A stretch of DNA of 45,502 nucleotides from Dehalococcoidales bacterium. GTDB taxonomy: Bacteria > Chloroflexota > Dehalococcoidia > Dehalococcoidales > UBA5760. The stretch covers positions 1 through 45,502 of the forward strand of contig JAQUQE010000013.1 in the NCBI GenBank assembly GCA_028716225.1, written 5' to 3'. The notes under the pieces were generated by a model. It worked only from the letters and a program-made list of their open reading frames with translations, was not told the origin of the DNA and did no database searches. Positions 1 through 45,502 of this stretch are shown here, one piece after another; the stretch's first letter is position 1; each line of letters begins with the position of its first letter. The position numbers were made by a program, and so were the translations under genes.

Positions 1-127
1 CTCTGAACTTATAACGAAAGGTCCGACCTGGCCACCCATATGGGGGTTCGTAGCATGAGTGTAGAAACGAAGGGCGGCGGAGTAACAACCCTATCTGCGC
101 TAACCATCGATGCCGACAAGGATTGGG
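1..127. repeat. Terminal direct repeat, copy 1 (circular joint)
   Basis: Bases 1-127 are identical to 45376-45502, the last 127 bases of the window. One gene runs through the joint: bases 1-58 are the 3' end of the small gene that begins at 45194, and the next gene starts at 55. This is the signature of a circular molecule assembled with a 127-base overlap, not a biological terminal repeat. The reading frames continue perfectly across it. Confidence 0.95.
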
Positions 128-8813: not shown

Positions 8814-9364
8814 AGATTACCCACCCCTAATCTCATTACCGACCGCCGCAGTTGCCAGCGGTAAAGGAATATCTGCCGGGCAATTCTCCGGCCCTCCGGA
8901 CAGGAAGAAGCCAGGGCGAAGAGGTCTTTCCCCTCGGCCTTGGCCCCAAACTGCAACGGGTATATAAGGCAGGCAAAGGGCTTTTCATCTTGAGCCAGAC
9001 AATGATTCAAATTATCCAAAAGAGTACATGGGTATTGCATATCTATAAAATCCGACCTCTCTCCGGGTTTGTAAACCGATTTAATGACCTGTGTATGATA
9101 CTTCTTAAACAATACCATGTGCTCTTTAACAGAGAGGCTGACGCAGTTATTTGGGCCTCTCTTACAACAGTTGGCATCGCAGGCGTCACACTTTACCTGT
9201 GAGATAAGAGCTGTAATCATACTAAAGCCAATCTCACCGGACTGTACGTTCAACGGCAGCGGAATAACGCTATTTGTTTCCTGAGCTCCCTTCATAAGCT
9301 CGCTGAGCTCTTTCTTGAACTCGTCTTCTTCCAGCTCCCAATCAATCAGAAAATTGAAACTCAT
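8810..9364 (-). CDS. YkgJ-type CxxCxxCC cluster protein
   Basis: 184 aa. The central region has the metal-binding Cys pattern of the YkgJ/CxxCxxCC family: CDACDANCC near residue 60, then CVSL, YPCTLLDNLNHCLAQDEKPFACLIYPL. It probably binds Fe-S or zinc. The basic Arg-rich tail is unlike the core. Good SD (GGAGGAG) before the ATG. Paired by ATGA with the DUF5131 gene, suggesting a shared metal-dependent pathway (inference). Confidence 0.8.
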   Translation of the reverse strand: MSFNFLIDWELEEDEFKKELSELMKGAQETNSVIPLPLNVQSGEIGFSMITALISQVKCDACDANCCKRGPNNCVSLSVKEHMVLFKKYHTQVIKSVYKPGERSDFIDMQYPCTLLDNLNHCLAQDEKPFACLIYPLQFGAKAEGKDLFALASSCPEGRRIARQIFLYRWQLRRSVMRLGVGNL

Positions 9365-9410
9365 TTACTCCTCCTAATATCTTTGCAGTGATTTTACAAA
9401 GGCGTCACGC

Positions 9411-9436
9411 AATTAGTTGGCGACCGGCAACTAATT
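9411..9436. promoter_or_regulatory. 9-bp inverted repeat (operator or recombination-site candidate)
   Basis: AATTAGTTG (9411-9419) and CAACTAATT (9428-9436) form a perfect inverted repeat around an 8-base GC-rich spacer. It lies in the gene-poor stretch 9365-9517 upstream of the YkgJ-like gene. The symmetry fits a dimeric regulator site. A recombinase core site is possible but the integrase is 21 kb away. Confidence 0.5.
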
Positions 9437-9673: not shown

Positions 9674-9991
9674 TTACTCCTCTACTCCTCCTAATATCAA
9701 ATCTCCCAGATACATTATCAGCCAGGGGGGCTCTATAATACCTATGCCATTGTACTGCGAGATATCTTTACAATAGAGCAGCTGCCTAGTGAACTGCTCT
9801 CCGGTCGCTGGGTTAGTAAACCTTATCCAATAATCATAACTTATTGGCGGTCCCAAATACTCATATGTTACATTAGCCAATGCCTGGAAGCGGCTATCAC
9901 TATTATCGATAAGCCGGATATCGAAGGGTTTCAAACCGTCCCTGCATTGCTCAAAGAAAGGCGATATTGTCTTGAAATCCAGTATTTTCAT
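9674..9991 (-). CDS. Hypothetical phage protein, possibly ASCH/DUF3850-like
   Basis: 105 aa. FFEQCRDGLKPFDIRLIDNSDSRFQAL resembles the N-terminal signature of small phage proteins with a PUA/ASCH-like fold (usual form: F..V..G.KPFEIR). WIRFTNPATGEQFTRQL and WLIMYLGD follow. This suggests a nucleic-acid-interacting domain, at low certainty. Start coupled by ATGA to the endonuclease gene upstream. Confidence 0.5.
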   Translation of the reverse strand: MKILDFKTISPFFEQCRDGLKPFDIRLIDNSDSRFQALANVTYEYLGPPISYDYWIRFTNPATGEQFTRQLLYCKDISQYNGIGIIEPPWLIMYLGDLILGGVEE

Positions 9992-10419
9992 TGCTCCTCC
10001 TTAAAATTGTATTCCCAGCCGGGGATCAGGGCATCAACTCCTTGTCTCTTGACTGCCTGAAACCACTCCTCTCCGATAACAGTGATTTTTACGTCAGGGT
10101 AGTATTTGGCCATGCGTTTGAGCTTAGTGGCACTCTTTGGGTCCATATAACCTTTAATCTCCACAAACTCTACTGCCGGCGCTTGATTCAGCCCGGTTTG
10201 AATCCAGAGCTTGAAATCTGGGCAGTAAAAGCGAGTACCGCGCTTAACGGGAAACTCGAAAGTCTGGACCTCATACTCCCACTTAACGATATCACCACCC
10301 TGTGCAATTACCCAGTTCAGATATCGACAGTAATTGGCTTCCCAAAGCGACCTTACATAAATACCGATATCCTTCCGGAAACCGCCTTTAGCATGGGGGT
10401 TAATTACGTGGTAGCTCAT
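9988..10419 (-). CDS. PD-(D/E)XK endonuclease, DUF1064/resolvase-like
   Basis: 143 aa. Motifs in order: IYVRSLWEANYCRYL (Glu near residue 29), RFYCPDFKLWI (catalytic Asp) and EFVEIKGYMD (E-x-K). This is the complete PD-(D/E)XK core with the DUF1064-like spacing. Such phage enzymes act on branched DNA or as VSR-like nickases. It lies downstream of the helicase loader, so a role in resolving replication or recombination intermediates is likely (inference). Confidence 0.75.
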   Translation of the reverse strand: MSYHVINPHAKGGFRKDIGIYVRSLWEANYCRYLNWVIAQGGDIVKWEYEVQTFEFPVKRGTRFYCPDFKLWIQTGLNQAPAVEFVEIKGYMDPKSATKLKRMAKYYPDVKITVIGEEWFQAVKRQGVDALIPGWEYNFKEEQ

Positions 10420-11110: not shown

Positions 11111-11965
11111 TTACCTCCTGCGGTAATCAGGGGAGGAATTGCATACTAATACAGAGATATCGGGATCAGAAAAGCGAGATAGAATGCGCTCGCTCTTTTT
11201 CTCAAGCTCCGCATAGTCCCGATTAGAAGTCATTACAGTTATACGCCGCTCACGGTACCGCTCATCGATAATCTGCTCAATCTTTGACAGCTCCCACTCT
11301 GTACCATACTCTACGCCAAAATCATCGAGTACAAGCGCAGGTATAGACACCATGGCTCGAACCTTAACCTCAGTGGTGTTATCCCCGATACTCTCTTTAA
11401 GCTGGCTCACCAGATTGGCTACAGTGAAAATGCGAGCATCGATATCCCTACCGTTCATTTCCGTCACAAGCGCCTCACATAAAAACGTCTTACCGTTGCC
11501 TACTACTCCATAGCAAAAGAGGAAGGGCTTATCCGACTCACCCTTAGCCAGGGCTTTAAAAGCGTGAAATGCTTCTTTGTTACCCTTCATCTGCTTAAAG
11601 GTATCGAAGCTAGGGAATTTTCTGCCCAGCCCCTTTTCTCTCAAGCTGTCAGGGGTTTTAATGAATCCCTTGCGTGATTCCTCAACACACCCCTTCCCTG
11701 GGCAGTGGATAACGTTATCATAACAAGTCATTCCCGTAACCGGGTCGCGGGGATGTAGCCAGCCAACGCCGTGGCATACCTCACAGTAGGGATTGGGTCC
11801 GTAGCCATGCTTACTTTTCCACCTTTGTGCAGTCTCCAAGCAAGTCCTGGTCACAAGGGTTGCTTGCGGCATATCTCTGCTTATATTGTCGTCTTCCTTC
11901 CTCTGGACTTGTGTATTGAGTTCCAAAGGACCTTCCTGATTGTTTTGATTCTCCAAATTTACCAT
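11111..11965 (-). CDS. dnaC-like: DnaC-like helicase loader (AAA+ ATPase)
   Basis: 284 aa from the longest start. An N-terminal zinc finger (YCEVCHGVGWLHP...CPGKGC, residues ~60-93) precedes an AAA+ domain with Walker A GVVGNGKT (153-160), Walker B LVLDDFG (211-217) and a late VMTSNRDY sensor segment. This is the layout of phage DnaC/DnaI helicase loaders. The start is uncertain: the frame overlaps the initiator gene by up to 155 bp, and an internal ATG at 11872 is possible. It would load the host helicase onto the origin with the initiator encoded just upstream. Confidence 0.8.
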   Translation of the reverse strand: MVNLENQNNQEGPLELNTQVQRKEDDNISRDMPQATLVTRTCLETAQRWKSKHGYGPNPYCEVCHGVGWLHPRDPVTGMTCYDNVIHCPGKGCVEESRKGFIKTPDSLREKGLGRKFPSFDTFKQMKGNKEAFHAFKALAKGESDKPFLFCYGVVGNGKTFLCEALVTEMNGRDIDARIFTVANLVSQLKESIGDNTTEVKVRAMVSIPALVLDDFGVEYGTEWELSKIEQIIDERYRERRITVMTSNRDYAELEKKSERILSRFSDPDISVLVCNSSPDYRRR

Positions 11966-12791
11966 CCTTCCTTAGAGGAAATATCCCGGTCCAGTTATTC
12001 ACAATGCTCTGGTTGAGAATTTCCGTAACGTCCTGGCCGGATGCCCGTAGTGTATCCAGCTTTTTGATAATGAGGTCTACCGCCTTTGATGTTGGGGGAG
12101 CCCTCTTAAACTTTCTCATTTCTAAATAAGCGTCCCAGGTTTCTTTATTTAACCAATTTGGTAACTCCTTTTTGGTAGCGACTTTATGACCTCCAAATGT
12201 AACGGAATGTAACGACTTGGCCCCGTTACATGACACCTTTTTCAGGCACGACCTTGTAACGACCTTTTCCGTTACAGCCTCAACCTCTGAGTGTGGATGT
12301 AACGCCGTTACGCAATCTTTATCTAACTCTATATATATATCTTTAATATTCTTTTCTGGTTCTCTTTTCTTTACTTCTTCTGTAACGACTTTTCCCGTTA
12401 CACTATGACGGCGGCGGTATTCCCTTACCCTTTCCTTTACCGCTTCAGCGCTATCAGATGGAGCCTTATCCTGTCGTGCTACAAAGTTGACTATGGTTAA
12501 ACATTTGCCATTGCCATTCTCATTCCAGGAAAGACTCCCTTGCCCCTCCATCTTTGTCAGCATGGACTTAAATTGGCTTACTTCCTCGGGCTTACTGATA
12601 TGGAGCGTATCGCACATTTCGTCAATTGATAGAGGGGTGTTGCCGCTGATAATCCTTCCCTCGGTGCTGCAGATGCGTCCGAGGGTTAGTAGCCCACACC
12701 ACGCTCCTCGCTCTGCCAGTGAAAGGCGTATTATCTTTGTGTCACTGGCCCATTCAGTCCACAACTTGAGCCAGGGTTTTGCTCTTGCCAT
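11811..12791 (-). CDS. Replication initiator with internal origin (lambda O-like)
   Basis: 326 aa. The N-terminus (KPWLKLWTEWASDTKIIRLSLAERGAWCGLL) matches the winged-helix domain of phage replisome organisers. The C-terminal ~100 residues (WLNKETWDAYLEMRKFKR...IIKKLDTLRASGQ) resemble the conserved C-terminal block of such initiators. The linker (residues ~131-198) is encoded by DNA packed with nine GTAACG/CGTTAC hexamers. This is the arrangement of lambda O, whose iterons lie inside the gene. A DnaC-type loader follows. It probably binds its own iterons and recruits the loader. Confidence 0.75.
   Translation of the reverse strand: MARAKPWLKLWTEWASDTKIIRLSLAERGAWCGLLTLGRICSTEGRIISGNTPLSIDEMCDTLHISKPEEVSQFKSMLTKMEGQGSLSWNENGNGKCLTIVNFVARQDKAPSDSAEAVKERVREYRRRHSVTGKVVTEEVKKREPEKNIKDIYIELDKDCVTALHPHSEVEAVTEKVVTRSCLKKVSCNGAKSLHSVTFGGHKVATKKELPNWLNKETWDAYLEMRKFKRAPPTSKAVDLIIKKLDTLRASGQDVTEILNQSIVNNWTGIFPLRKDGKFGESKQSGRSFGTQYTSPEEGRRQYKQRYAASNPCDQDLLGDCTKVEK
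12181..12347 (-). repeat. Inverted repeat copy 1 inside the initiator gene
   Basis: Read on the minus strand, this segment is nearly identical to plus-strand 37517-37699. The other copy carries an extra 6-bp GAGTTA unit, an extra 11-bp iteron unit and a few substitutions. Here it is protein-coding; in the other copy the frame is broken, so the DNA rather than the protein is conserved. Iterons lie at 12199, 12209, 12224, 12256, 12270, 12299 and 12306. Confidence 0.92.
12199..12401. other. Candidate replication origin 1 (GTAACG iterons)
   Basis: Nine copies of the hexamer GTAACG or its complement lie at 12199, 12209, 12224, 12256, 12270, 12299, 12306, 12382 and 12396, several as divergent pairs. 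The pair at 12299-12311 forms GTAACG-C-CGTTAC. An AT-rich tract (ATATATATAT) lies alongside at ~12330. Iterons plus AT-rich DNA inside an initiator gene is a classic theta origin design. Confidence 0.75.
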
Positions 12792-15164: not shown

Positions 15165-15506
15165 CTACTTTGCAATGGCCTTCTTTTTCTTCCTTTCTTG
15201 CTTGGCTACTACCTTCTCGTCTGGCAATACGGGTACATCAATTACTTCCTGCAGCAGCTCCTCGAGTGACCGTTTCTCTTCTACCAGCCGGTCACTGATT
15301 TTCTTCCTGCCCAGGATATATAGTTTCTCTGCCTCGAGTGCCCTACTTACGTCTTCCAGTACCTTCTGAATGGATGTAGCCAGTGGGCTTTCTGCTGGCG
15401 GCTTGCTAGCTATAGCGATGGCCTCATTTAGTTCATTGAGCGCTGTTCGCAACGAGCCAGCGATCGCGCTACGACCCCAATACTTGCGCCTGGTTGTTTT
15501 TCTCAT
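15165..15506 (-). CDS. Hypothetical helical protein with basic ends
   Basis: 113 aa. A basic N-terminus (MRKTTRRKYWGR) is followed by long helices (LRTALNELNEAIAIAS, IQKVLEDVSRALEAEKLYILGRKK) and a Lys-rich end (KQERKKKKAIAK). Possible coiled-coil nucleic-acid-binding protein. No family recognised. Confidence 0.5.
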   Translation of the reverse strand: MRKTTRRKYWGRSAIAGSLRTALNELNEAIAIASKPPAESPLATSIQKVLEDVSRALEAEKLYILGRKKISDRLVEEKRSLEELLQEVIDVPVLPDEKVVAKQERKKKKAIAK

Positions 15507-15518
15507 TGTCCTATCTCC

Positions 15519-15797
15519 TTATCTAGCCCACATGCCGAAGAAATACATTGACCCTGTGTAGATAACGACACACAGCATACCAATGAGCAATCCCCACTTT
15601 ACCCAACCCCTCTGGTCGAAGTGAACAACGACCGCCATTATTATAGCTGCCACTATCCCGCGCCATAACATATTGCTACCAAAATGCTGCGCTATGGGCG
15701 ATGGATTTCCCTCAATGAATTGTCCAGAGGCCAGACCGAGCTTAGTAATAAAGGCATCAAGTACGTTCAGACCGGCGAATAAAATGACCTCTATCAT
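15519..15797 (-). CDS. DUF5658-like membrane protein
   Basis: 92 aa with three membrane segments. LNVLDAFITKLGLASGQFIEGNP is the N-D-x-T-x-G-x-E-x-NP pattern typical of DUF5658-type small membrane proteins. Good SD (GTAGGAGGG). Function unknown. Confidence 0.6.
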   Translation of the reverse strand: MIEVILFAGLNVLDAFITKLGLASGQFIEGNPSPIAQHFGSNMLWRGIVAAIIMAVVVHFDQRGWVKWGLLIGMLCVVIYTGSMYFFGMWAR

Positions 15798-15807
15798 ATT
15801 TTATCCC

Positions 15808-15882
15808 TCCTACAAAAATAACCCCCGGGAGTCGAGAAACACGGTGGTCACTCCGTAAAACTCAACTACCCAGGGGGGTAGG
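15808..15882 (-). terminator. GC-rich hairpins upstream of the DUF5658-like gene
   Basis: On the minus strand, CTACCC-CCCT-GGGTAG can fold locally. Alternatively ACCCCC..GGG can pair with CCCGGGGGT about 40 bases later, followed by TATTTTT. This may be an attenuator or terminator in the 197-base gap 15798-15994, which holds no convincing gene. Confidence 0.4.
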
Positions 15883-17238: not shown

Positions 17239-17502
17239 TTATCCTCCCTTATGCTTTAGCATTTGCATCCAGCCTCTTTCTTCAGGCGGTATGGGGGGCC
17301 CCATCTCGTTGTAATCAGCACAGGTTTGGCAAATCCTGCGTTCCAAAGGCTTCCCACTCATTAGTTGTTCGATATTTAACTTCCCTCCCTTACCAGTGCC
17401 AATCGCTTTACCCTTGGCACAATATATTTCCTTCCCATTAACCTTGGCATTACTGCATTGATACAGACTCCGAACTACCGATTCAGTCTTTTTCTTACTC
17501 AC
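17239..17502 (-). CDS. Small Cys-containing protein of the AAA module
   Basis: 87 aa, GTG start overlapping the AAA gene's end. Four Cys are spaced as pairs: YQC...YC near 16-28 and RICQTCADY near 58-61, separated by a Gly/Lys loop. It may bind zinc or an Fe-S cluster. The tight packing between the AAA ATPase and its DUF3150-like neighbour suggests a common complex (inference). Confidence 0.55.
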   Translation of the reverse strand: MSKKKTESVVRSLYQCSNAKVNGKEIYCAKGKAIGTGKGGKLNIEQLMSGKPLERRICQTCADYNEMGPPIPPEERGWMQMLKHKGG

Positions 17503-19117
17503 TTTTATTACTCTCCTTTGTTAAATTTCGGTACTTTTCCGGTATGAATTCGAGGTCGTCACAGTCCTCGATAGCTACCCTGGTCATCATTTCAATATTC
17601 TGAGTGCGAGCTCTTGTGAGCTTAAGGGCTTCAGTGATTGCTTTATCAGACTTCAGCCCCCTATCTTCCATCAACCCTTTAGCCTTGATAACTACCTTTT
17701 CAATCTCAGCTCCGGTCCAGCCCTCAGTGGAAGCGGAGTAACTCTTACCGGTCAGCTTAAAGGGAACCTTATACTTGGCACACATGACTCTAAAGATATC
17801 CAGTCTGGCTTTCTGGTCCGGCACCAGGAAGGGAATCTTGGCATCGAAGCGCCCAGGTCTTTTAAGCGCGGCGTCCATCAAGTCAGGCCGGTTAGTAGCG
17901 GCCAGAAACACGACTTGTCCTCGATGCCCGGTATCGCTCATAAACTCCATAAGGCGTTTGAAGACGCGATTCGATACCCCCGAGTCACCTGCCTCACCCC
18001 TCTGAAGCTGCTGGTCTATTTCGTCAATCAGGATAATTATGGGAGCCAGTGACTTAACGGCCTCTAGTGCCTTGTCTAAGTTTCTCTCGCTCTCGCCTAC
18101 CCACTTACTGAATATCTTGGCCGGGTTTAAGACAGCCATGTTTAAGCCGCTTTCCTTGGCAACCGCCTCGGCCATAATAGTCTTACCGGTACCCGCAGGT
18201 CCAGTCATTAAAACGCCCATTGGTACACGGCCATAATTGCCTATCTTGACCGGGTTAATTACATTGCGGTAGAAGAATTCCTTGACGTTATCAAGTCCAC
18301 CCACAGCATCGAAGCCGTACCGTGGCTCCATCATTTCCAGCACGTCCCCAAACTCACTCTTCATAATATCGCGCTTACGCTCTCTGATTAACTCCCAAGT
18401 TAATCTACCTTCCTGTTTGGCTCGAAGAAAGATATCCTCGATGTGCACCAGAGACAGACCTGCAGTAGCCCTGGCAATATCACTATTTGATAATTCAGTG
18501 GTACCTACCATGAACTGTGGCTGCTTATCCACAAAGGATTTTCGCTCCTCGATGTTGGGTATGGGTATTCTTATAGCCTCATACTTAGAACTGGCAGCCC
18601 TTACTGCCTGGTGGATATCTGAGACGTTATTGGTGATAAGAAAGATAGGATTGCCGGCAGCGACTATACCCGGGTCCCTGGCCCAGCTCTCGATGGTCAC
18701 TAAAGCATCCCTGTCCTCTGGTATCATCATTGCCATATCGGCAGCCGGCACTAAAGACTCGGCGTATTCTATAATTACCACCGAGGCTTTGCCTCCCTCT
18801 ATTTGTTTCCTTAGAAGTTTCTCCAGCACCGGTAGCGCCTCTTTAGGTGACTTTGGTATAACAAGGTCACCGGTGATAGGGTCTGGCTGTAAGCCGGTAT
18901 ACTCAATGAATGTCTTTCTCATTGTCTCGAGGGGGAAGGTTATTCCCTTTGCCCTGTTATAGATAGCTATAACCTTGTAAGCGGAAAGGGCTTGTGACAG
19001 GTAGCTGATAAGATTAACCCCCGGCTCCACATAGTCGGAAATATTTAGATGAAGTAGAAAACCAATCGCTACCCCGCTTACATATTTTTGCTTCCATTCA
19101 TCAAACCATGCTGGCAT
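17495..19117 (-). CDS. Ycf46-like AAA+ ATPase
   Basis: 540 aa, the typical length of the Ycf46/FtsH-type AAA family. Residues 1-250 are a degenerate AAA-like domain (VVIIEYAESL in place of Walker B). Residues ~265-500 are a full AAA domain: GFDAVGGLDNVKEFF, Walker A GPAGTGKT (306-313), Walker B IILIDEID (~361-368), AATNRPDL and the arginine-finger segment RPGRFD. Known from cyanobacteria, plastids and phages, with no defined substrate. It heads a five-gene cluster behind promoter B1. Confidence 0.85.
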   Translation of the reverse strand: MPAWFDEWKQKYVSGVAIGFLLHLNISDYVEPGVNLISYLSQALSAYKVIAIYNRAKGITFPLETMRKTFIEYTGLQPDPITGDLVIPKSPKEALPVLEKLLRKQIEGGKASVVIIEYAESLVPAADMAMMIPEDRDALVTIESWARDPGIVAAGNPIFLITNNVSDIHQAVRAASSKYEAIRIPIPNIEERKSFVDKQPQFMVGTTELSNSDIARATAGLSLVHIEDIFLRAKQEGRLTWELIRERKRDIMKSEFGDVLEMMEPRYGFDAVGGLDNVKEFFYRNVINPVKIGNYGRVPMGVLMTGPAGTGKTIMAEAVAKESGLNMAVLNPAKIFSKWVGESERNLDKALEAVKSLAPIIILIDEIDQQLQRGEAGDSGVSNRVFKRLMEFMSDTGHRGQVVFLAATNRPDLMDAALKRPGRFDAKIPFLVPDQKARLDIFRVMCAKYKVPFKLTGKSYSASTEGWTGAEIEKVVIKAKGLMEDRGLKSDKAITEALKLTRARTQNIEMMTRVAIEDCDDLEFIPEKYRNLTKESNKSE

Positions 19118-19393: not shown

Positions 19394-19704
19394 CAGTGTC
19401 CTACTCTCTGCTGTGGCGCTGTTGGCTGATGAATATGTGTCTCAGGTTGGTCCACCTTCTCAAACTTCACTCCCTTGACTGATAATAGCACTATGATTGA
19501 TTTTAGCTGGGTAACTCCTAAGTCCCACTCGGCTTGCGACCGCAGTGTTAGGGTATTACCCTCCAGTGTGGCATTGACCATGGGTGACATGATTATTTTA
19601 TCCCCGACTACTTTCCATCCCATTTCTTTGGCTATCTTTTTTATATCAGCAATGTTTTGCGCTGATAAAGTAGTACGCATTACTACCCGCGAATTGCATG
19701 ACAT
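19393..19704 (-). CDS. First gene of the AAA operon, possibly DUF1257/Ycf35-like
   Basis: 103 aa. TTLSAQNIADIKKIAKEMGWKVVGDKIIMSP and TLTLRSQAEWDLGVTQLKSIIVLLSVKGVKFEKV read like a small alpha/beta sandwich. Its position next to a Ycf46-like ATPase recalls the Ycf35 (DUF1257) partner seen in some phages and plastids; this is a suggestion from context, not a match. It lies 17 bases downstream of family-B promoter B1, with SD GGAGGG. Confidence 0.5.
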   Translation of the reverse strand: MSCNSRVVMRTTLSAQNIADIKKIAKEMGWKVVGDKIIMSPMVNATLEGNTLTLRSQAEWDLGVTQLKSIIVLLSVKGVKFEKVDQPETHIHQPTAPQQRVGH

Positions 19705-19720
19705 GTTTTCCCTCCTATAT

Positions 19721-19753
19721 AGCTAATCGTTTAACTCTCTCAAAATGTGACAG
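19721..19753 (-). promoter_or_regulatory. Family-B promoter element B1
   Basis: Minus strand: CTGTCACA, 16 bases, CGATTAGCT, then TATATAGGAGGG and the ATG of the gene at 19704. It is identical in both boxes and spacing to B2 and shares the 16-base spacing with B3-B5. Confidence 0.7.
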
Positions 19754-19769
19754 GCTTAAAAGTATATAA

Positions 19770-21726: not shown

Positions 21727-21858
21727 TTAATTTACGTTATAGGACACCCATTCAGTCCAGTAGATAATGTCACTTGTAAAATAATCCTCGTAATATTGCA
21801 TTTCCTTGAGACAATCCCTCTCAACAATGGTATCGGAGACAAATTCTTTTTTGGGCAT
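21727..21858 (-). CDS. Tiny acidic protein behind promoter B2
   Basis: 43 aa (starts MPKKEFVSDTIVERDCLKE), acidic and aromatic-rich. SD AGGGGGTGAA lies between the family-B element B2 and the ATG, and the stop is 15 bases before the DnaX start. First gene of the clamp-loader operon. No family recognised. Confidence 0.6.
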   Translation of the reverse strand: MPKKEFVSDTIVERDCLKEMQYYEDYFTSDIIYWTEWVSYNVN

Positions 21859-21874
21859 ATTTCACCCCCTATAT

Positions 21875-21907
21875 AGCTAATCGTTTGAGAGGCAAAAAGT
21901 GTGACAG
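21875..21907 (-). promoter_or_regulatory. Family-B promoter element B2
   Basis: Minus strand: CTGTCACA, 16 bases, CGATTAGCT, then TATATAGGGGGTG and the ATG of the gene at 21858. Same boxes and spacing as B1, and also the next seven bases (TATATAG). Confidence 0.7.
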
Positions 21908-21909
21908 GC

Positions 21910-22242
21910 TCACTTTACCTCCACGATTCGGCGGAGAGGTCGAGTATATCTGTCGTGCCTTATAGCAGTCTTATTTGGTGCCCAATACTTTTGAATATGC
22001 CCATAGGTGAATTCGACATAATACTGCCGGCAGTAGTCACTAAAGTCGAACATCCACCCGCCCAGGGGGATTCCTGACCTGCTGAATATATTCCGGCTTA
22101 TGTCGGCAAATATGTTGTCCTTCTCTTCCTGAGTAAGCGCTTCTCCATTGTTGAGCTTGAGGCGCATCCGGTAAGGGAAAGAGTCCTTTAGAGTATCCAA
22201 CTCTTGGACATCCCATTGCACAAACTTCCAAGCATTATCCAT
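21910..22242 (-). CDS. Hypothetical protein
   Basis: 110 aa. LDTLKDSFPYRMRLKLNNGEALTQEEKDNIFADISRNIFSRSGIPLGGWMFDFSDYCRQYYVEFTYG is a pattern I recall from phage early regions without known role. Rich in Trp/Tyr. SD AAGGGGTGA. The end is only 2 bases from the B2 -35 box. Confidence 0.6.
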   Translation of the reverse strand: MDNAWKFVQWDVQELDTLKDSFPYRMRLKLNNGEALTQEEKDNIFADISRNIFSRSGIPLGGWMFDFSDYCRQYYVEFTYGHIQKYWAPNKTAIRHDRYTRPLRRIVEVK

Positions 22243-26400: not shown

Positions 26401-27130
26401 ACTTATAGACTCATTACTGAGGCCAAGCCGAAACTCAGCCTCAGTCTATCAGGCTAGAAGTTAAGAAAAACCTAATACTCCCTTCAGTCAAGAGGGAGTC
26501 TGTCTTGAAAGTTAGATGATATACATGATGTCACAGGAAAGTGAAATTGTCGGAAGCTCTTTCCGTGACTTTTGCGGAAAGACCCCTGAGCCGGTTAGAG
26601 CCGTGGTGACTTGCTACCTGTCACTGTCTACCTGCCATTAGTCATACTCCGATATTTCCCATAGAGCCTCTTACAAAGGATATGAGCAGAGCATGGCTTG
26701 ACCTGATAGACCGCGCTCTCAACCTCTTGATGATGGGAGATGCCATCACAGCCGTACTCAGGCTTGAGCCTCGTAGGCGGATTACCGCCATCTTTGCCTT
26801 ATTTAACGCCGCAGGCGTAGGCGTCCCTTCAAAGCTGTGGATAGCTTGCCAAGATTTAGGACTCAGCACTTCCCCGTATGGTTTTAGGTGGTTACGGCCA
26901 TCCTTGCAACATGGAGCTAGTCTCCCCGCCACAGTTCCCACGTAGGAGGACGAAGTGCAAGATGTCCCCTGTGACCAGGGCGCTGTGCCAGACTCCGAGC
27001 GTTGAGTTAGCATGAGTGCTTACGACTCCCACGTTTAGTCAGCCCCAAGAGCTAACAGGCATGGGCATAAGCTCGTTTTCCTCTATTCCCGTTATCGAGC
27101 CTATTGCTAAGAGTGATTTTTGTCACTCTA
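26401..27130 (-). ncRNA. Candidate large structured non-coding RNA
   Basis: About 730 bases without a credible gene, downstream of three tandem family-B promoters. At least ten local perfect stems follow one another: 27110-27129 (7 bp), 26967-26980 (5 bp, 4-base loop), 26806-26818, 26776-26789, 26760-26771, 26731-26748, 26606-26624, 26559-26582 (8 bp), 26477-26499 (7 bp) and 26406-26448 (5+6 bp). The only open frames (87 aa plus, 123 aa minus) lack SD and protein-like composition. Length and setting recall large phage RNAs such as GOLLD or ROOL, but I cannot match either. Ends are approximate. Confidence 0.55.
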
Positions 27131-27133
27131 TCA

Positions 27134-27166
27134 AGCTAATCGAACGAGCCTTCAAAAATGTGACAA
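27134..27166 (-). promoter_or_regulatory. Family-B promoter element B3
   Basis: Minus strand: TTGTCACA, 16 bases, CGATTAGCT. It points into the gene-free hairpin-rich region; the first stem (27110-27129) begins about 5 bases later. Confidence 0.65.
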
Positions 27167-27219
27167 GCTCAATTCGCTTGATAGAATGACAAGCCGCTAT
27201 TCAAATTCGCTGTATACTA

Positions 27220-27252
27220 AGCTAATCGTATGAGCGTTAAACTTTGTGACAA
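27220..27252 (-). promoter_or_regulatory. Family-B promoter element B4
   Basis: Minus strand: TTGTCACA, 16 bases, CGATTAGCT, then TAGTATAC. Second of three tandem copies 86 bases apart from B3. Confidence 0.65.
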
Positions 27253-27301
27253 GCTCAATAACAGGCATAAAAAAGCTGGTTAGTAAATTGCCCTACTAAC
27301 C

Positions 27302-34015: not shown

Positions 34016-34124
34016 GGGGCTGCTCCTTACTCTTCACAGTCTCCCAGTATTTTAACAAAGTACATTTCTCACAGACTCCCATATCTTTTCCCGGACAAGT
34101 TTTGCACTTATCCGGTCTGTCCAC
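34008..34124 (-). CDS. Tiny zinc-binding protein
   Basis: 38 aa from GTG 34124. KCKTCPGKDMGVCEKCTLL has two CxxC pairs. It overlaps the end of the intein-bearing gene and the start of the ferritin-like gene. The AAGGAG upstream is rather far, so the start is tentative. Confidence 0.5.
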   Translation of the reverse strand: MDRPDKCKTCPGKDMGVCEKCTLLKYWETVKSKEQPHG

Positions 34125-35775
34125 TTAGTTTACCGGCTCCTTGTAACTGTTTCTGTTGCTCCAGGGTAAGAAGTGATGTCACCTTTTCGGTACCCATAAC
34201 ATCCTTCCTGTAAGCTCTTACCTGGGGGATAAGACCCCGGTAATACTCAGGGTCGTGTTTCATAATCTCTGTGGGCTGAAAATCAGGTACATGGGATTTA
34301 TACCAGCCGATAATCTGGCCATAGACCGGCTTGTGCTCATAGGACATGATTTCCTCAGCCGTAGCCTCAACGCCGAAGTGGTGTTTATCAGCAAGACAGT
34401 TATGGGCAATACCGTGTGGAGTTAGATAACTTTCATCCTCGGCTACGCAGACGTTATAAACTGGTCCATTGTACTCTTCATCTTTTACGCAGCGTACCGG
34501 CAGGAACATATAACCTTCACCAGCCCACCCTTTGTTACGGAGTGTCCGTGATTGAACCACTCGCCAGCCAAAATCGCAAATAGCATTTAAACGGGACATC
34601 GCATCACCCGCAATAGAAATGGTATATGTATTACTTTCCGTCTTTATTAATCTACCCTCAATTATGCCATCTGGAGTCTTACTACATCTGAAACCATGCA
34701 GAATACCCAAGCGAAAAAGCATCATATGAATTTGATAAGCAAGGTCCTTTGAAACGGTAGCGTAATGCATTTCATTACTCGTAATGCATCCATCTCCCGA
34801 GAAGAGACCTTTTAGCAGCCTTCCTTGTTTTTCTGAGGGAAGATACATAAACCATGGGGGCAAGTGCTTTTCTAGGGCATTGCTGCCGAAGGCTTCAAAA
34901 AATAAGCAGAATTCTTTGTGGGTATAAGCGAGATGTAAGCATGTTCTTCTATGATATGTTTTCGGCTCGACTCCAAAGGTTTTGACAAATAATTGAATCA
35001 CTCTGTCTATGTGGTTAAGCTCATGATATCCTAAGCTGATAGTAATACGATTTTCAACCTTACAACCTTCTGCGAGATACCACCCAAGTATCTCCGCGAG
35101 GTCAGGTGTAATGATATCCATATCGCGGGTTTCTAATATTCTAGGAAAAACCATGAAGTCCCCATCGGTTATGTCTCTAGCATGTACCCAAGCTAGTTGG
35201 GATTCATTTAATCCTCCATGAGTGCGCCAATTCCAGCGCCATCCATCTTTTGCTACCAATACTGGATGTTCTGGTGTAGCCCGGAACGGGGAGCCAAAAT
35301 ATACTAGGTCGATATTTCGCATTATGCCAGTATGGTTTCGCACCATATGGTCGGTAATGCGTTGCACCTGTCCTCTATGGCTGAAGATTCTCCTGGCTCG
35401 ATTTTTGTAAACTTCAGCTAGTGTAATAACAGGGTGCATATCTCCATTTACGTAAACTAAAGAGTCACCAGGTTGACAGTCACAGGGTTTGCCGGCGATC
35501 CGCCCGCCCCCGGCAAGGTCCAGCTCCATCTTGTAGAGCTCTTTGCCCAGCCGGCGCCGGAGCTCTTCGATTGTTTCCTGGGTATTGGCCAGTTTAGGCT
35601 TGGTCACTATGGCTGGAGTAGTGCCGGATATGACTTGAGTAGATGAGGGTTGGATATGAAATACTTCTTCGCCCGGGTATGGTGGAAATTTCACTTCTGG
35701 CGGCGTATTTAACCCTTTAACGATGACGCTCACCAGCAGTTTAAGACCGACAATGGGTAAATTACCAAGGTCCAT
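34108..35775 (-). CDS. CDC...KHH-motif protein interrupted by an intein
   Basis: 555 aa precursor, 195 aa after splicing. The start is set at ATG 35775 with SD GGGAGGTGG; the upstream ATG at 35802 lies in the -10 box. Host parts: a hydrophobic N-terminus (LPIVGLKLLVSVIVKGL), a Pro/Thr linker, then KPCD joined to CLADKHHFGVEATAEEIMSYE and a helical C-terminus. Splicing restores CDCLADKHH, a probable metal site. First gene behind the leftward divergent promoter. Family not recognised. Confidence 0.75.
   Translation of the reverse strand: MDLGNLPIVGLKLLVSVIVKGLNTPPEVKFPPYPGEEVFHIQPSSTQVISGTTPAIVTKPKLANTQETIEELRRRLGKELYKMELDLAGGGRIAGKPCDCQPGDSLVYVNGDMHPVITLAEVYKNRARRIFSHRGQVQRITDHMVRNHTGIMRNIDLVYFGSPFRATPEHPVLVAKDGWRWNWRTHGGLNESQLAWVHARDITDGDFMVFPRILETRDMDIITPDLAEILGWYLAEGCKVENRITISLGYHELNHIDRVIQLFVKTFGVEPKTYHRRTCLHLAYTHKEFCLFFEAFGSNALEKHLPPWFMYLPSEKQGRLLKGLFSGDGCITSNEMHYATVSKDLAYQIHMMLFRLGILHGFRCSKTPDGIIEGRLIKTESNTYTISIAGDAMSRLNAICDFGWRVVQSRTLRNKGWAGEGYMFLPVRCVKDEEYNGPVYNVCVAEDESYLTPHGIAHNCLADKHHFGVEATAEEIMSYEHKPVYGQIIGWYKSHVPDFQPTEIMKHDPEYYRGLIPQVRAYRKDVMGTEKVTSLLTLEQQKQLQGAGKLSGQTG
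34399..35478 (-). mobile_element. Intein with LAGLIDADG homing endonuclease
   Basis: 360 aa inside the protein above. Starts at Cys (CQPGDSLVYVNGD, block A). Block B is ATPEHPVLV. LAEILGWYLAEG and LLKGLFSGDGC are the two LAGLIDADG helices. It ends DESYLTPHGIAHN (blocks F/G), followed by Cys+1. All splicing residues are present, so it should be active. It sits exactly between the two Cys of a CDC motif. Confidence 0.92.
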
Positions 35776-35797
35776 AGCTACCACCTCCCGTTTCGCT

Positions 35798-35827
35798 ATC
35801 ATATAACCACTTTACCATGGTAGTCAA
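35798..35827 (-). promoter_or_regulatory. Family-A promoter P4 (leftward)
   Basis: Minus strand: TTGACTACCATGGTAA with -35 at 35827-35822, 18-base spacer, -10 TATGAT (35803-35798). Drives the intein-bearing gene. Back-to-back with P5; only 7 bases lie between the two -35 boxes. Confidence 0.7.
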
Positions 35828-35872: not shown

Positions 35873-36595
35873 ATGACTGACAAAAAGCCACAGACGACAA
35901 CGGAAAATGAACCTGTTAGTAAATGCCCTTTTTGCGACAAAGCCATATTACTTGGTGAGTATAAAAACGTAGGAGCTGCCCTGACAGCGCACAAGTGGGC
36001 TGCCCATGCCAGGGAAATGAATACGCAACTTGACGCTGCCCGACAGAAATCAGCAGAAACACGAAAGATTAAAAGTATGGCCAAAAAGGAAAAGAAAAAC
36101 AAACCCTTACAGACCACTATCGAAAAAGCCATAGAGCCAGAGTCCAATACAGAGCCTCCTGTCACCTCCATAGAAGAAGAGCCAGTTACTCAAAAGGACA
36201 CTGAAGCAGTGGCTCCTCCACCAAGAAAGACCGAGGAAGAAAAGGCAGAGGTGGAGAGACTAAAGAGACTAAAAGTAGAAACCGAGCGGAAATTAAGAGC
36301 AGGTCCGGGGATTATCGCTACTGCTACCGCTCCCAAGCCCGGTGCCATTCAATTCCAGCTTGGTGCTCTTTTGATAGAGGTCGATCCATTAAGCCTGGTA
36401 GAGTGCTACCAACTCTACAAAGACATGGTTACCCGCTGTGGACTGACCAGTACGTTCTCGGAGGCCATGGTTGATTCATTTGGCATGGCATGGCGGATGC
36501 TGGCAGCCGAGCTACCAGCAATGGAGCCGCGGCATAACGGTAATGGACACCATGAAGTTTCCCAGGAACAAATAACCAGAGTAAGAATTGCTTGA
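35873..36595 (+). CDS. C2H2 zinc finger and coiled-coil protein
   Basis: 240 aa. CPFCDKAILLGEYKNVGAALTAHKWAAHA (residues ~18-46) is a C2H2 finger. Then comes a long Glu/Lys/Pro linker, a helical EEEKAEVERLKRLKVETERKLR and a globular C-terminal part (GAIQFQLGALLIEVDPLSLVECYQLYKDM). First gene of the rightward block. Possibly a regulator or scaffold protein. Confidence 0.6.
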   Translation: MTDKKPQTTTENEPVSKCPFCDKAILLGEYKNVGAALTAHKWAAHAREMNTQLDAARQKSAETRKIKSMAKKEKKNKPLQTTIEKAIEPESNTEPPVTSIEEEPVTQKDTEAVAPPPRKTEEEKAEVERLKRLKVETERKLRAGPGIIATATAPKPGAIQFQLGALLIEVDPLSLVECYQLYKDMVTRCGLTSTFSEAMVDSFGMAWRMLAAELPAMEPRHNGNGHHEVSQEQITRVRIA

Positions 36596-36608
36596 ACAAG
36601 GAGGAATC

Positions 36609-37469
36609 ATGTCTAGTATAGGTGAATTGCTTGGCAAGAAGTACGGTGATACCAAAACTCAAAGTGGGGAAGGTAAGACTGACAAGGACAAATTCCAGGA
36701 AACATTAGACTTGGCGAATGATGCCGCCAAACTACGCATTGTTGAGGGAATTGGCGGCACTAAAGGCGTTGTAGAGAAACAAGCTGATAAAACTACCCTC
36801 GATATCTCCGGTGTCATTAAGGCCCAGTCTGAACAGATTAACAGCCTTATGACTAACCTGGTGACCCTTATCACTGCAAAGAAAGATAACGTTGACCCGT
36901 TCTTTGAGTACATGAAGGGTGAACTCAGGGACATGAAAGAACAACTGAGTGGCAACGACCCACTGGCGGCTATAGCTAATAACATGGCGGTAATGAAAAG
37001 CCTTACTGACCAGATGAAACAGCATCTTGGTATCGGTGCTCCAGTGGCCGGTACCGGCGACAACATAAATCTTATGCTGGAGATTGAGAAACTAAAGGGT
37101 GACAGAGAGGAATCAGCTCGACGCTGGCAGGCAGAGAGAGACGATATCCACCATCGCTGGGAGATAGAGGACAAGAAATGGACTGCCGATTATAACATGG
37201 CAGTAAACAAACTCTCCAGCGATAGCAAAGGGAGAGAAGGCGCTGCTACCATGGCTCAAGACTTGATTGGTTCAGCAATTGAGGCTTTCGATGCCGGGCG
37301 TCGAGGAGTAGCGGCAGGGGCGCAGGCTACACCACCGGTACAATACAAGCTCCCCAAGAGTATTATCTGCGAAGAATGCAAGAAAGAGATAGTTGTTCCC
37401 GAAGACCATAATCCTAGTCAGCCTGTAGTATGTGCCTGTGGCGAAAAATACAACTTTGGACCAAAATAA
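36609..37469 (+). CDS. Coiled-coil protein with C-terminal zinc ribbon
   Basis: 286 aa from ATG 36609 (SD AAGGAGG). Helical throughout: IKAQSEQINSLMTNLVTLITAKK, FFEYMKGELRDMKEQL, and a charged stretch LEIEKLKGDREESARRWQAERDD. It ends with a zinc ribbon (IICEECKKEIVVPEDHNPSQPVVCACGEKYNF). Composition suits a scaffold or DNA-associated particle protein. No family named. Confidence 0.55.
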   Translation: MSSIGELLGKKYGDTKTQSGEGKTDKDKFQETLDLANDAAKLRIVEGIGGTKGVVEKQADKTTLDISGVIKAQSEQINSLMTNLVTLITAKKDNVDPFFEYMKGELRDMKEQLSGNDPLAAIANNMAVMKSLTDQMKQHLGIGAPVAGTGDNINLMLEIEKLKGDREESARRWQAERDDIHHRWEIEDKKWTADYNMAVNKLSSDSKGREGAATMAQDLIGSAIEAFDAGRRGVAAGAQATPPVQYKLPKSIICEECKKEIVVPEDHNPSQPVVCACGEKYNFGPK

Positions 37470-37516
37470 TGGGAAAACATCCGGCAGAATCTTTAACCCC
37501 CCACACCCCCCATAAG

Positions 37517-37699
37517 ATTAAAGATATATATATAGAGTTAGAGTTAGATAAAGATTATGTAACGGCGTTACATCCACGCCTGAGTTTGAGGCTGTAACGG
37601 AAAAGGTCGTTACAAGGTCGTGCCTAGAAAAAGTGTCATGTAACGGGGCCAAGTCGTTACATTCCGTTACATTTCCGTTACATTTGGAGGTCATAAAGT
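37517..37699 (+). repeat. Inverted repeat copy 2 in an intergenic region
   Basis: Near-identical to the minus strand of 12181-12347. Differences: an extra GAGTTA at ~37537, an extra 11-bp unit (ATTTCCGTTAC) at ~37671 and a few substitutions. The initiator frame is broken here. It ends 2 bases before the GTG at 37701 and supplies that gene's SD (GGAGG). Confidence 0.92.
37559..37681. other. Candidate replication origin 2 (GTAACG iterons)
   Basis: Eight hexamers: GTAACG at 37559, 37594 and 37640, and CGTTAC at 37566, 37608, 37655, 37665 and 37676. The last three are spaced 10-11 bp, one helical turn. An AT-rich tract (ATATATATATAG) lies 30 bases upstream. This is the only gene-free DNA of the two arrays (37470-37700). 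Confidence 0.7.
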
Positions 37700-37700
37700 A

Positions 37701-38057
37701 GTGGGTAAACTACAAGATATTTTAGACAAATTCGATGGAGTGACTTTTGCCAAGTCTCTTATACTTAAACAGATAAAACGCAAGATCGACCCCTTCCTGG
37801 AAAAGTGGGGACCTGAACGATGCGATGCTATGATATTAGCTAACAAGGACTTCGGTGATGTTATACCTCCGGAGCTGGTAGCCAAATATGCCCCTGAAGG
37901 GAAGAAGTGGTCGTTCTTACTGGAGAAATTAACCGACGATGACTTTATTTCGATACTGCCGCCCTGGTTTATTCAAACTGTTGACAACCGTGGTAATCAG
38001 GGTACAGAATGGGCGGGTAGGCAAATAAAATGGCTGAAGGGATTTCTTGGCGAATAG
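37701..38057 (+). CDS. Hypothetical protein downstream of the iteron array
   Basis: 118 aa, GTG start with SD inside the repeat. Helical (LQDILDKFDGVTFAKSLILKQIKRKIDPFLEKWG), then PPELVAKYAPEGKKWSFLLEKLTDDDFISILPPW. No family recognised. Its last codons contain the TTGACAACCG promoter for the next gene. Confidence 0.55.
   Translation: MGKLQDILDKFDGVTFAKSLILKQIKRKIDPFLEKWGPERCDAMILANKDFGDVIPPELVAKYAPEGKKWSFLLEKLTDDDFISILPPWFIQTVDNRGNQGTEWAGRQIKWLKGFLGE
37981..38010 (+). promoter_or_regulatory. Family-A promoter P6 inside a coding region
   Basis: Plus strand: TTGACAACCGTGGTAAT with -35 37981-37986, 18 bases, -10 CAGAAT. Nearly identical over 30 bases to P3 (33110-33139). It lies in the last ~75 bases of 37701-38057 and would feed 38030 onwards. 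Confidence 0.55.
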
Positions 38058-38701
38058 ACCCCAAAACAGGTAAAAAACTGCTTATCACCGCAGCTGTAGC
38101 AGTTGGGGTTGGCATATTCCTGAGTCAGATTTCTTCAAAACCATCAGGCGCTTCAGTTAAATACCCCACTAATTATCTGGTAGACCCGGACTCCGTATCT
38201 GAAATAGCGACACAGCTGCCCAATGATGAGGATGACTTCATTCTATCGGCATGGGATTATGTCCACAATAAAGTGCGCTATTCCAGCTATAACACTGATA
38301 TTTTTCTCATCAATTCCGGCGTAGAATGTACCCGCTGCTATCATCCGATATCAGTGCTTCAAAGCGGCAGCGGTAACTGTGTAGCTTCGGCCTCATTGCT
38401 GACATCTCTTCTCAGAGCCAAATTATCCCCTGACCGGGTATATGAAGCGGTAGGGTATCTCGATACCGGCAAAGGTGATTTTGGTCATGCCTGGGTGGAA
38501 GCCAAAAGGAACGATGGTAACTGGTACCTATTAGAATCAACTTCGGCTCCCTGGGGATGGCAGTCGAGGAACGCTGCTAACAACTATGAAACTTTAGCCA
38601 AGTTTAACGATGCCAAGTTTGAGTGCTATAGCCATGAAATGTGCCAGGTCGCCATGGGGTGCCCCTGTGAGCAACGGAGTGAAAGATGGCGCGGCCTTTA
38701 G
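38030..38701 (+). CDS. Membrane-anchored transglutaminase-like protein
   Basis: 223 aa. Residues ~15-33 (KKLLITAAVAVGVGIFLS) form an anchor. Residues ~70-175 follow the transglutaminase-like (papain-fold) core: GSGNCVASASLLTSLLRA with Cys117, DFGHAWVEAK with His153, and WYLLESTS with Glu169 in the third position. It could cleave or cross-link protein or peptidoglycan peptides. Extra Cys near the end (CYSHEMC, GCPCEQ) may form disulfides. Shares the anchored plan of other proteins here. Confidence 0.7.
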   Translation: MAEGISWRIDPKTGKKLLITAAVAVGVGIFLSQISSKPSGASVKYPTNYLVDPDSVSEIATQLPNDEDDFILSAWDYVHNKVRYSSYNTDIFLINSGVECTRCYHPISVLQSGSGNCVASASLLTSLLRAKLSPDRVYEAVGYLDTGKGDFGHAWVEAKRNDGNWYLLESTSAPWGWQSRNAANNYETLAKFNDAKFECYSHEMCQVAMGCPCEQRSERWRGL

Positions 38702-41239: not shown

Positions 41240-41893
41240 ATGAGCTCTAAAGCATTTCTTATCGAAACCGATTCCATGACCTATAGCGACCAGCAACGGC
41301 TAAGAACCGCTGCACTCGCTGGCGCTGTTCAGCGAGCATATAACCAGGGTATCGCACCCTGGGACAAAGAGGACCTTCCCCTGAAAAACGATTCCAAATT
41401 TGCCGATACCCCTGACCTGAGTGAACTTATTGACTACATAGCCAGGGGTGGATGGCCCAAGAATCTGGACGCCCGCGAATTCCAGCCCACGCTTGATGCT
41501 GGTGCTGGTGCTGCTGCGGACTTCTGGAATACCCCTGTCCTGGCTGCAGTCGGCACCGAATACAGCTGTCTTGGCGCTGTTGGTGTTGCCCCCGCTGCCA
41601 GCCGTACCAATAAGATAGTTGTCTGGTACAAAATTCAGATAATCACGACCCCATTACCGGTGAACCGGCTTCTCTTCCGCCGCAATACGGCGACTGGTTT
41701 ACTCCAGGCAGAGTTTGACCTGGAGCAGGTTTCCGGTGGTGAGAGAGTCGATGGTTACTTCTCTGAGCCCCAGGTATGGGACAAGACTACCCCCTACGCC
41801 ATCAACGCTATGTGCATGCTTCTCACTAATGCAGCGTGCAAAGTCGTTCTTGGCAATTTCGTTGTTGAACCTGCCGGACAGACTAACGTCTAG
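41240..41893 (+). CDS. Putative structural (capsid-type) protein
   Basis: 217 aa, strong SD (GAAGGAGG). N-terminal ~75 residues are helical. Then Ala/Gly-rich AGAGAAADFWNTPVLAAVGTEYS and a beta-rich end (TNKIVVWYKIQIITTPLPVNRLLFRR...CKVVLGNFVVEPAGQ) suggest a jelly-roll-like subunit. It is in the best-expressed looking part of the operon. No match to HK97-type capsids seen. Confidence 0.45.
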   Translation: MSSKAFLIETDSMTYSDQQRLRTAALAGAVQRAYNQGIAPWDKEDLPLKNDSKFADTPDLSELIDYIARGGWPKNLDAREFQPTLDAGAGAAADFWNTPVLAAVGTEYSCLGAVGVAPAASRTNKIVVWYKIQIITTPLPVNRLLFRRNTATGLLQAEFDLEQVSGGERVDGYFSEPQVWDKTTPYAINAMCMLLTNAACKVVLGNFVVEPAGQTNV

Positions 41894-42463: not shown

Positions 42464-42498
42464 GTACCATGCACCCGGATAATCCGGGTGCATGGTAC
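42464..42498 (+). terminator. Perfect 15-bp hairpin after the putative coat gene
   Basis: GTACCATGCACCCGG (42464-42478) pairs without mismatch with 42484-42498 around ATAAT. It begins 8 bases after the stop. No T-run follows, so partial terminator, RNase barrier or mRNA stabiliser. The rest of the gap to 42575 is AT-rich with no gene. Confidence 0.75.
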
Positions 42499-42575: not shown

Positions 42576-43199
42576 ATGTCACAAGATTTTATGCGCCGAG
42601 CCTACAAAGCATCGGACGCGATGGAACCCGTTGCCCTGCTCGATGATTTTGTCCGGGTCATTACCAACGGCCAGGAATATTTCGGCAAGGTAGATTTCTT
42701 TGAAGCTATCCCCCCATTTCAGTGTATCGACTTTTGCGCTGTTCCTCCATGGGGACCGCTGGCAGTAGCCACTCCCATGCCGGCAGCCACCAGCCCAGGC
42801 AAATATAATGTAACCAATCTTGACCTGGACGACGACGAGTTTGGTCAGTGGCGCTGGTTCCCGCTCGATAATATCCAGGTAGGATTATATCTGCCCTCCG
42901 GTGTTGCCAAATGGTCGCTGAAGAATATTCAAGGCGCTCTTGACAGGGCAATCGTCTATCGCGATCCGCTACTGGTATCAACAGAGTTTTACTCATGGGA
43001 AGACCAGCGGCCGGCAATGCAGCCTACCAACTTCTCTGGATATGTTCAGAATGCCGCTCGGATTGTCGCCTTTGGCTATCGATATCATATTTCACAGATC
43101 AAGGTGGGCAACCCACTGTACACAAACCTGTTGAACGGCAACACTCCATGCACACCGGTAATCTGCAAGGGCTTCATTGGGCAGCCTTCAAGAACGTAA
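42576..43199 (+). CDS. Putative structural protein
   Basis: 207 aa, SD AAAAAAGGAG. FFEAIPPFQCIDFCAVPPWGPLAVATPMP, WRWFPLDNIQVGLYLPSGVAKWSLKNIQ, then VSTEFYSWEDQRPAMQPTNFSGYVQNAARIVAFGYRYHI. Aromatic- and Pro-rich beta protein without enzyme motifs. Position suggests a minor capsid or vertex component. Family unknown. Confidence 0.45.
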   Translation: MSQDFMRRAYKASDAMEPVALLDDFVRVITNGQEYFGKVDFFEAIPPFQCIDFCAVPPWGPLAVATPMPAATSPGKYNVTNLDLDDDEFGQWRWFPLDNIQVGLYLPSGVAKWSLKNIQGALDRAIVYRDPLLVSTEFYSWEDQRPAMQPTNFSGYVQNAARIVAFGYRYHISQIKVGNPLYTNLLNGNTPCTPVICKGFIGQPSRT

Positions 43200-45194: not shown

Positions 45195-45433
45195 TGAGTC
45201 TTGAAATCAAGAGCGGCGGAGTAACCGCCATATCAGGGTTAACCATAGACGCCGATAAAGGCTGGGCGGCTAAAGGTATCTCTAATATTAAAGAGGTAGT
45301 TGCCGGCATGGCTGAAGGTGACATGATTTACCATGACGGCACAAGAATAGTCAAGATAACTCCTGGCGTTATAAACTCTGAACTTATAACGAAAGGTCCG
45401 ACCTGGCCACCCATATGGGGGTTCGTAGCATGA
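45194..45433 (+). CDS. Small paralog of the fibre protein N-terminus
   Basis: 79 aa, spanning the circular joint. SLEIKSGGVTAISGLTIDADKGWAAKGISNIKEVVAGMAEGDMIYHDG aligns along its whole length with residues 1-75 of the next gene (55-981). A tandem duplication in which only one copy gained the distal domain. It may be a connector shared by the receptor proteins. Confidence 0.65.
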   Translation: MSLEIKSGGVTAISGLTIDADKGWAAKGISNIKEVVAGMAEGDMIYHDGTRIVKITPGVINSELITKGPTWPPIWGFVA

Positions 45434-45502
45434 GTGTAGAAACGAAGGGCGGCGGAGTAACAACCCTATCTGCGCTAACCATCGATGCCGACAAGGATTG
45501 GG
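45376..45502. repeat. Terminal direct repeat, copy 2 (circular joint)
   Basis: This is the exact copy of bases 1-127. It contains the last 58 bases of the gene at 45194 and the first codons of the gene annotated at 55-981. It should be removed when the circular sequence is counted, giving 45,375 bp. Confidence 0.95.

Follow-up and report, generated by a model that had tools for sequence, protein, structure and literature searches.

An inverted, non-coding duplicate of an initiator-gene origin among the structural genes of a virus-like circle: a candidate second initiator-bound site

The window, by which we mean the whole 45,502-nt stretch of DNA that was analysed, is contig C13 of a 2.64-Mb MAG whose host order is probably Dehalococcoidales. 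Its ends carry a perfect 127-bp direct repeat, so that the window probably represents a circle of 45,375 bp. Terminal repeats of 127 bp were also present on a second circle of the same MAG (G000:C11, hereafter the sister circle) and on IMG/VR record IMGVR_UViG_3300024353_000002 (G200), and because all three are of one length, the repeat size looks like an assembly k-mer length. Two segments of the circle, copy A and copy B, share inverted TGTAACG/CGTTACA iterons adjoining extremely A+T-rich tracts, and are separated by 25.3 kb along one arc and 20.0 kb along the other. The features of the circle that bear on these two segments are as follows.

1-127 (+): 127-bp terminal repeat, same as 45376-45502; marks the circle.
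9988-10419 (-): Holliday-junction-resolvase-like protein (phrog_190, E 1.7e-9), in an early gene group shared with the initiator and loader.
11111-11965 (-): DnaC/DnaA-type helicase loader (phrog_50, E 9.5e-33; PF00308, E 2.7e-11), directly downstream of the initiator gene, which it overlaps.
11811-12791 (-): O-like replication initiator, 326 aa, with a winged-helix-like N-terminus, disordered linker and C-terminal domain (phrog_678, E 9.5e-21; AlphaFold2; Foldseek).
12181-12350 (-): copy A, the origin segment within the linker codons of the initiator gene (blastn, alignment; linker predicted disordered).
12198-12312 (-): main iteron array of copy A (site positions).
12314-12355 (-): A+T-rich tract of copy A, 86% and the top 42-nt window of the circle for A+T (42-nt window scan).
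12381-12402 (-): additional iteron pair, TGTAACGG-N6-TCGTTACA, upstream of copy A and absent from copy B (site positions).
36588-37469 (+): gene before copy B, encoding a coiled coil and a C-terminal zinc ribbon (a weak A4-family hit by profile, E 0.016).
37514-37699 (+): copy B, a 186-bp non-coding duplicate of the origin segment (blastn E 1.7e-57; alignment; broken frame).
37517-37557 (+): A+T-rich tract of copy B, lengthened by a 6-bp insertion and a possible unwinding element (42-nt window at 37517, 83% A+T).
37558-37682 (+): iteron array of copy B, eight TGTAACG/CGTTACA sites, one gained via an 11-bp insertion (site positions; cluster test).
37686-37703 (+): GGAGGT at the 3' end of copy B, a 9-nt spacer, then the GTG start of 37701-38057, a probable translation start (sequence; inference).
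37701-38057 (+): gene after copy B, 118 aa (a weak A3-family hit by profile, with E 0.003 and a probability of 10%).

The gene content of the circle appears virus-like and is not recognisably related to that of known tailed phages: among the proteins scanned none could be assigned to a tail, terminase or capsid family, and neither an Rfam family nor a tRNA was found. Two conserved structural-type proteins common to related circles and with no PHROGs counterpart (41240-41893 and 42576-43199) may be a pair of major capsid proteins. For the product of 42576-43199 the AlphaFold2 model (pLDDT 44) was too poor to tell the fold; a scan of viral contigs with the putative capsid protein gave no match, and the capsid alignment as query matched two viral and two genome loci. 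A near-perfect palindrome of 35 nt (42464-42498) lies between structural genes. Elsewhere the circle encodes a transglutaminase-like protein (38030-38701), a GH114-family protein (5351-6157) and an AAA ATPase (17495-19117; 46% identical to one on contig G047:C71), and a LAGLIDADG intein seems to split a short gene at 34108-35802 (-), homologues of which in four relatives (about 196-220 aa) are without the insert. Four repeats of 41-55 nt with the core AGCTAATCG...TGTGACA(G/A)GCT, at 19702-19760, 21856-21914, 27115-27173 and 27219-27259, are possibly an operator or promoter common to early genes.

Copy A lies inside a real initiator gene, in agreement with the original prediction of an initiator-gene origin. 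The phrog_678 family, which is described as 'replication initiation O-like', and the adjoining loader gene are both present, and the iterons fall within the part of the gene that encodes the linker, with 10 CGTTAC sites in the gene where 0.27 are expected. In the AlphaFold2 model, which was built from five sequences and has a mean pLDDT of only 56, a folded N-terminus (helices and a two-stranded wing) is followed by a disordered segment at residues 131-208, the linker encoded by copy A, and by a helical C-terminal domain. The best Foldseek matches were mostly winged-helix regulators (MarR/TrmB/RbkR-type) with probabilities mostly of 0.8-1.0, and since their E values were only 0.05-0.1 we treat the winged-helix identity of the modelled N-terminus as a lead rather than proof. 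Scans of viral contigs with the initiator as query gave no match. Taken on its sequence features, the assignment of copy A as a lambda/SPP1-type origin, with its iteron array in the initiator gene, is well supported.

Copy B was predicted to be a nearly identical inverted copy of this segment with 6-bp and 11-bp additions, and self-comparison of the window by blastn, together with a global alignment, confirmed it. The blastn alignment paired 37514-37699 (+) with 12350-12181 (-) at 85.6% over 187 columns (E 1.7e-57), placing the true edges of the copies slightly beyond those first proposed (37517-37699 and 12181-12347). The global alignment comprised 168 aligned columns, 96% of them identical, with six substitutions and five indels, namely the 6-bp and 11-bp insertions in copy B and three 1-nt indels; in an alternative alignment, three substitutions, all in a GTGCCT segment, take the place of two of the 1-nt indels. 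Because the copies differ by both substitutions and indels, a duplicated-assembly artefact is unlikely. Copy B shifts among all three reading frames, so that the protein frame is indeed destroyed there, and every iteron that it shares with copy A is intact, again as had been claimed.

The two copies are also the densest repeat clusters of the circle. Of the 17 TGTAACG/CGTTACA sites, eight fall in one 200-bp stretch at 37.5 kb, a count that was unchanged when copy A was masked, whereas the densest 200-bp stretch for CGTTACA held at most two in 200 Markov-1 simulations. Ranked by occurrences of any one 7-mer per 200 bp, copy B came first (8) and copy A second (6), with the rest at three or fewer among the stretches listed. 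The A+T content of the copy B tract is reached by only 0.011% of 42-nt windows, and that of the copy A tract is the highest of all. Copy B thus combines, in a non-coding region, the repeats of copy A with an A+T-rich element; that region is 'late' as inferred from its structural-type neighbours. Mapping of an origin by GC skew was tried and rejected: the minimum, at 36,222, lies near copy B, and the sister circle, which is without copy B, shows the same pattern, which indicates that the skew follows gene direction.

Whether the initiator would recognise these iterons was approached through ten initiator genes, in each of which the CGTTAC and CGTGAC counts were compared with 1,000 Markov simulations. 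Those encoding the N-terminal domain of the window's protein were enriched (10 CGTTAC in the window's gene, 4 in G081 and, with p 0.006, 2 in G186), and a further gene with this domain (G040) had six CGTGAC. Three initiators that have only the C-terminal domain in common with the window's (G131:C49, G049 and G018) had neither hexamer. The initiator of the sister circle, another O-like protein, carried 10 CGTTAC, and an initiator-like gene of G200 had neither hexamer and ACTAC(C/G)TAGT-type repeats of its own instead. Another initiator-like gene (L065) held four CGTTAC, a count biased by the fact that L065 was found through its iteron pattern. Two distant matches to the N-terminal domain (G408 and G482) had two CGTTAC and 0-1 CGTGAC, so few that the rule linking domain and iteron does not extend to them. 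Since these iterons track the N-terminal domain and are absent from the genes that share only the C-terminal one, the initiator probably binds both copies. The paired-iteron pattern was found in just one of 395 relatives, the window's own genome, where its five sites are all in or beside copies A and B; among viral contigs it was found in eight records, and in only one of these (L065) does it fall within a gene resembling an initiator, and nowhere else in that 37.6-kb record.

Copy B sits among the structural genes, where 36588-37469 and 37701-38057 are 231 bp apart, and its end at 37699 is 1 bp before a start codon. The counterpart junctions abut or overlap in all four relatives examined (2 nt in the sister circle; overlapping in G131:C173, G131:C187 and G200), the homology of the flanking genes to the relatives' gene pair being weak (E 0.003 and 0.016). 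A gap where the junction is closed in four relatives suggests that copy B is probably derived, an insertion into the operon from copy A, and the GGAGGT placed 9 nt before the GTG suggests that the insertion now supplies the ribosome-binding site, or translation start, of 37701-38057, as it seems from the sequence. Searches with copy B gave no match in 50,697 phage records, a collection without the SPP1 records NC_004166 and X97918, nor among the plasmids searched, and a viral-contig scan with the 37701-38057 product likewise gave no match.

Such a history could have come about without any replicative role. Copy B may be a neutral relic, a fragment of the initiator gene copied recently and by accident (e.g., through template switching) that is functionless save as the start site of 37701-38057 and intact because it is young, a possibility that we take seriously and hold to be somewhat unlikely. 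It fits the observations that only 6-9 substitutions separate the copies in about 168 columns, that the match runs past the iterons into the spacers and ends abruptly, that, of three differences within the GTGCCT segment, two would leave the amino acid unchanged in the copy A frame (as read from the alignment), and that copy B is not found in relatives. Nor were the iterons significantly spared. One of six substitutions fell in the 49 iteron columns, where it completes a repeat in copy B (Fisher p 0.67); under the alternative alignment it was one of nine (Fisher p 0.45), and the probability of at most one of 12 events falling in the cores was 0.097. The claim that selection acts on the DNA is therefore not borne out, the lack of significance following from copies that are too alike or young and have too few differences. 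Against a relic, however, both large differences enlarge parts of an origin (an extra iteron and a longer A+T tract), no iteron is damaged, and 186 bp are retained in an operon whose counterpart junction has no gap in relatives. The original prediction had named two signs that would speak against it, absence of the second copy from all relatives and neutral decay of its hexamers. The latter was not seen; the former holds in part, in that the sister circle and G200, which are the two circular relatives whose initiator gene was recognised, lack a second array of their own initiator's repeats.

The copies form inverted, near-identical arms (170-186 bp) on a single circle and might also recombine, and it was proposed that they may let the circle invert, flipping one arm. 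We consider such a switch scarcely credible and rejected it on the ground that both orientations should be viable: modelled crossovers in all five aligned blocks break the initiator gene, leaving an initiator of 172-207 aa or, in one case, a 322-aa fusion to 37701-38057, against 326 aa for the intact protein.

The position of copy B, inside the structural operon and just before a start codon, would suit a regulatory site, at which bound initiator represses or times the structural operon, or which titrates initiator or pairs with copy A to limit copy number. Such handcuffing of iterons is established for plasmids. Three relatives have repeat arrays, different ones, at the start of that operon. 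G131:C173 (L030), a 44,178-bp circle from another genome of the same order, carries a directly oriented pair of related GTGTCA arrays, at 1210-1310 and 9320-9425 (66 nt, 82%, E 1.2e-8), one of them immediately preceding a helix-turn-helix gene that heads the structural operon, and the homologous gene of G131:C187 is also preceded by GTGTCA repeats. G200 has CAAGACA/TGTCTTG arrays at 15398-15820 and 18239-18290, of which one precedes the structural operon and the other lies between divergent genes. No O-like initiator was found in G131:C173, and the G200 arrays differ from the repeats of its own initiator, which suggests that these arrays are operators rather than origins; with repeat arrays so common at the operon head in this family, location by itself is no ground for assuming an origin role. 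For copy B itself we nonetheless judge a regulatory site quite unlikely, as no sigma-70-like promoter was found in 37300-37900 and copy B retains an A+T-rich tract that an operator or titration site would not need.

Within the family, a second initiator-bound site is not general. The sister circle (L027-L029; 49,555 bp), whose structural genes are up to 61% identical to the window's, has 12 CGTTACC sites, 10 of them in its different O-like initiator gene and two single, and the initiator repeats of G200 cluster only within its initiator gene. Self-comparison of G000:C11, G131:C173, G131:C187 and G047:C71 (long contigs) and of G018:C114 revealed no inverted pair like A and B.

Proximity to structural genes, much as pac of tailed phages lies close to the terminase genes, might mark a packaging (pac/cos-like) site at their head, which we regard as very improbable. 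Among the proteins scanned no terminase or packaging gene was recognised beside copy B, and the sequence is a duplicate of an origin. With no terminase recognised, a need for concatemers, or packaging from them, is likewise not established for the circle.

An origin role is plausible for copy B. It keeps every part needed for initiator binding, and our preferred reading, to which we give a probability of roughly 45%, is that it is a second initiator-bound site resembling oriR of phage SPP1 and copied from the primary origin, copy A. Under this model copy A would be a theta-type origin: binding of the O-like initiator to the TGTAACG/CGTTACA iterons within its own gene would go with melting of the neighbouring A+T-rich tract, and the DnaC-like loader encoded next door would bring in the host helicase. 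Duplication of this origin, inverted, into a gene junction of the structural operon would have given copy B, which could be filled late in infection when initiator levels are high, stalling forks from copy A and seeding recombination-dependent replication; alternatively, copy B might fire as a late origin within the structural genes. The Holliday-junction-resolvase-like gene of the circle counts in favour of this reading. A bolder version, which we find rather doubtful, would have this second initiator-controlled origin couple late replication, and with it local gene dosage, to structural-gene expression, as an independent and very recent arrival at the SPP1-like oriL/oriR layout.

To our knowledge, SPP1 has been the main basis for arguments on why some phages retain two initiator-bound origins and on how the second one arises. 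Here copy B is so recent that the sequence still shows where it came from and where it was inserted, and a sister circle in the same assembly, without copy B, has the counterpart junction closed. Should copy B work, it would show that an origin embedded in a gene can be relocated as a unit and shed its coding function, and the circle would offer a simple two-site system in which late origins, fork barriers and handcuffing can be tested.

Phage lambda has its origin inside gene O, a single such origin with an iteron sequence different from the circle's. What lambda-type origins share with the circle is an O-like initiator gene whose linker codons contain the iterons, next to a loader gene. Phage P1, like the circle, has an origin inside an initiator gene with an A+T-rich tract: in the part of the published account drawn on here, oriL lies within repL, its A+T-rich tract is critical, and a non-coding version of the repL sequence can act in trans (PMC9948254). 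The P1 oriR, however, belongs to a separate plasmid-stage replicon and is no duplicate of oriL, whereas copy B duplicates copy A. For the Vibrio phage ICP1, read coverage suggests an extra late origin and a change to rolling-circle mode, and the excerpt of that source used here describes no duplicate of initiator iterons, unlike what we see in the circle (PMC7145576). Our literature search found no phage with a second initiator-repeat origin beyond SPP1, P1 and ICP1, which is no proof of absence.

The closest parallel is SPP1. According to the portions of the two accounts on which we draw, its oriL lies in gene 38 and its oriR in an intergenic late region, both are bound by G38P, and bound oriR has been proposed to stall forks, leading to recombination-dependent, concatemer-forming replication (PMC6316719, PMC3485210). 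Two inverted origins on one circle had been called unusual, which is fair as far as it goes, with SPP1 as a precedent for the pairing. In SPP1 as in the circle, an origin within the initiator gene is paired with a non-coding late-region counterpart, in the circle a candidate one, and each has repeats and an A+T-rich element; the SPP1 genome is of similar size (~44 kb), and both encode a helicase loader among early replication genes (PMC6316719, PMC3485210). As far as those portions go, the SPP1 origins are ~12-13 kb apart and similarly organised, whereas copies A and B are inverted duplicates that agree in 96% of aligned columns and lie 25 or 20 kb apart. SPP1 is moreover a tailed phage, unlike anything recognised on the circle, and its initiator is G38P, that of the circle matching phrog_678. 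In layout, the arrangement of copies A and B has a known parallel in SPP1.
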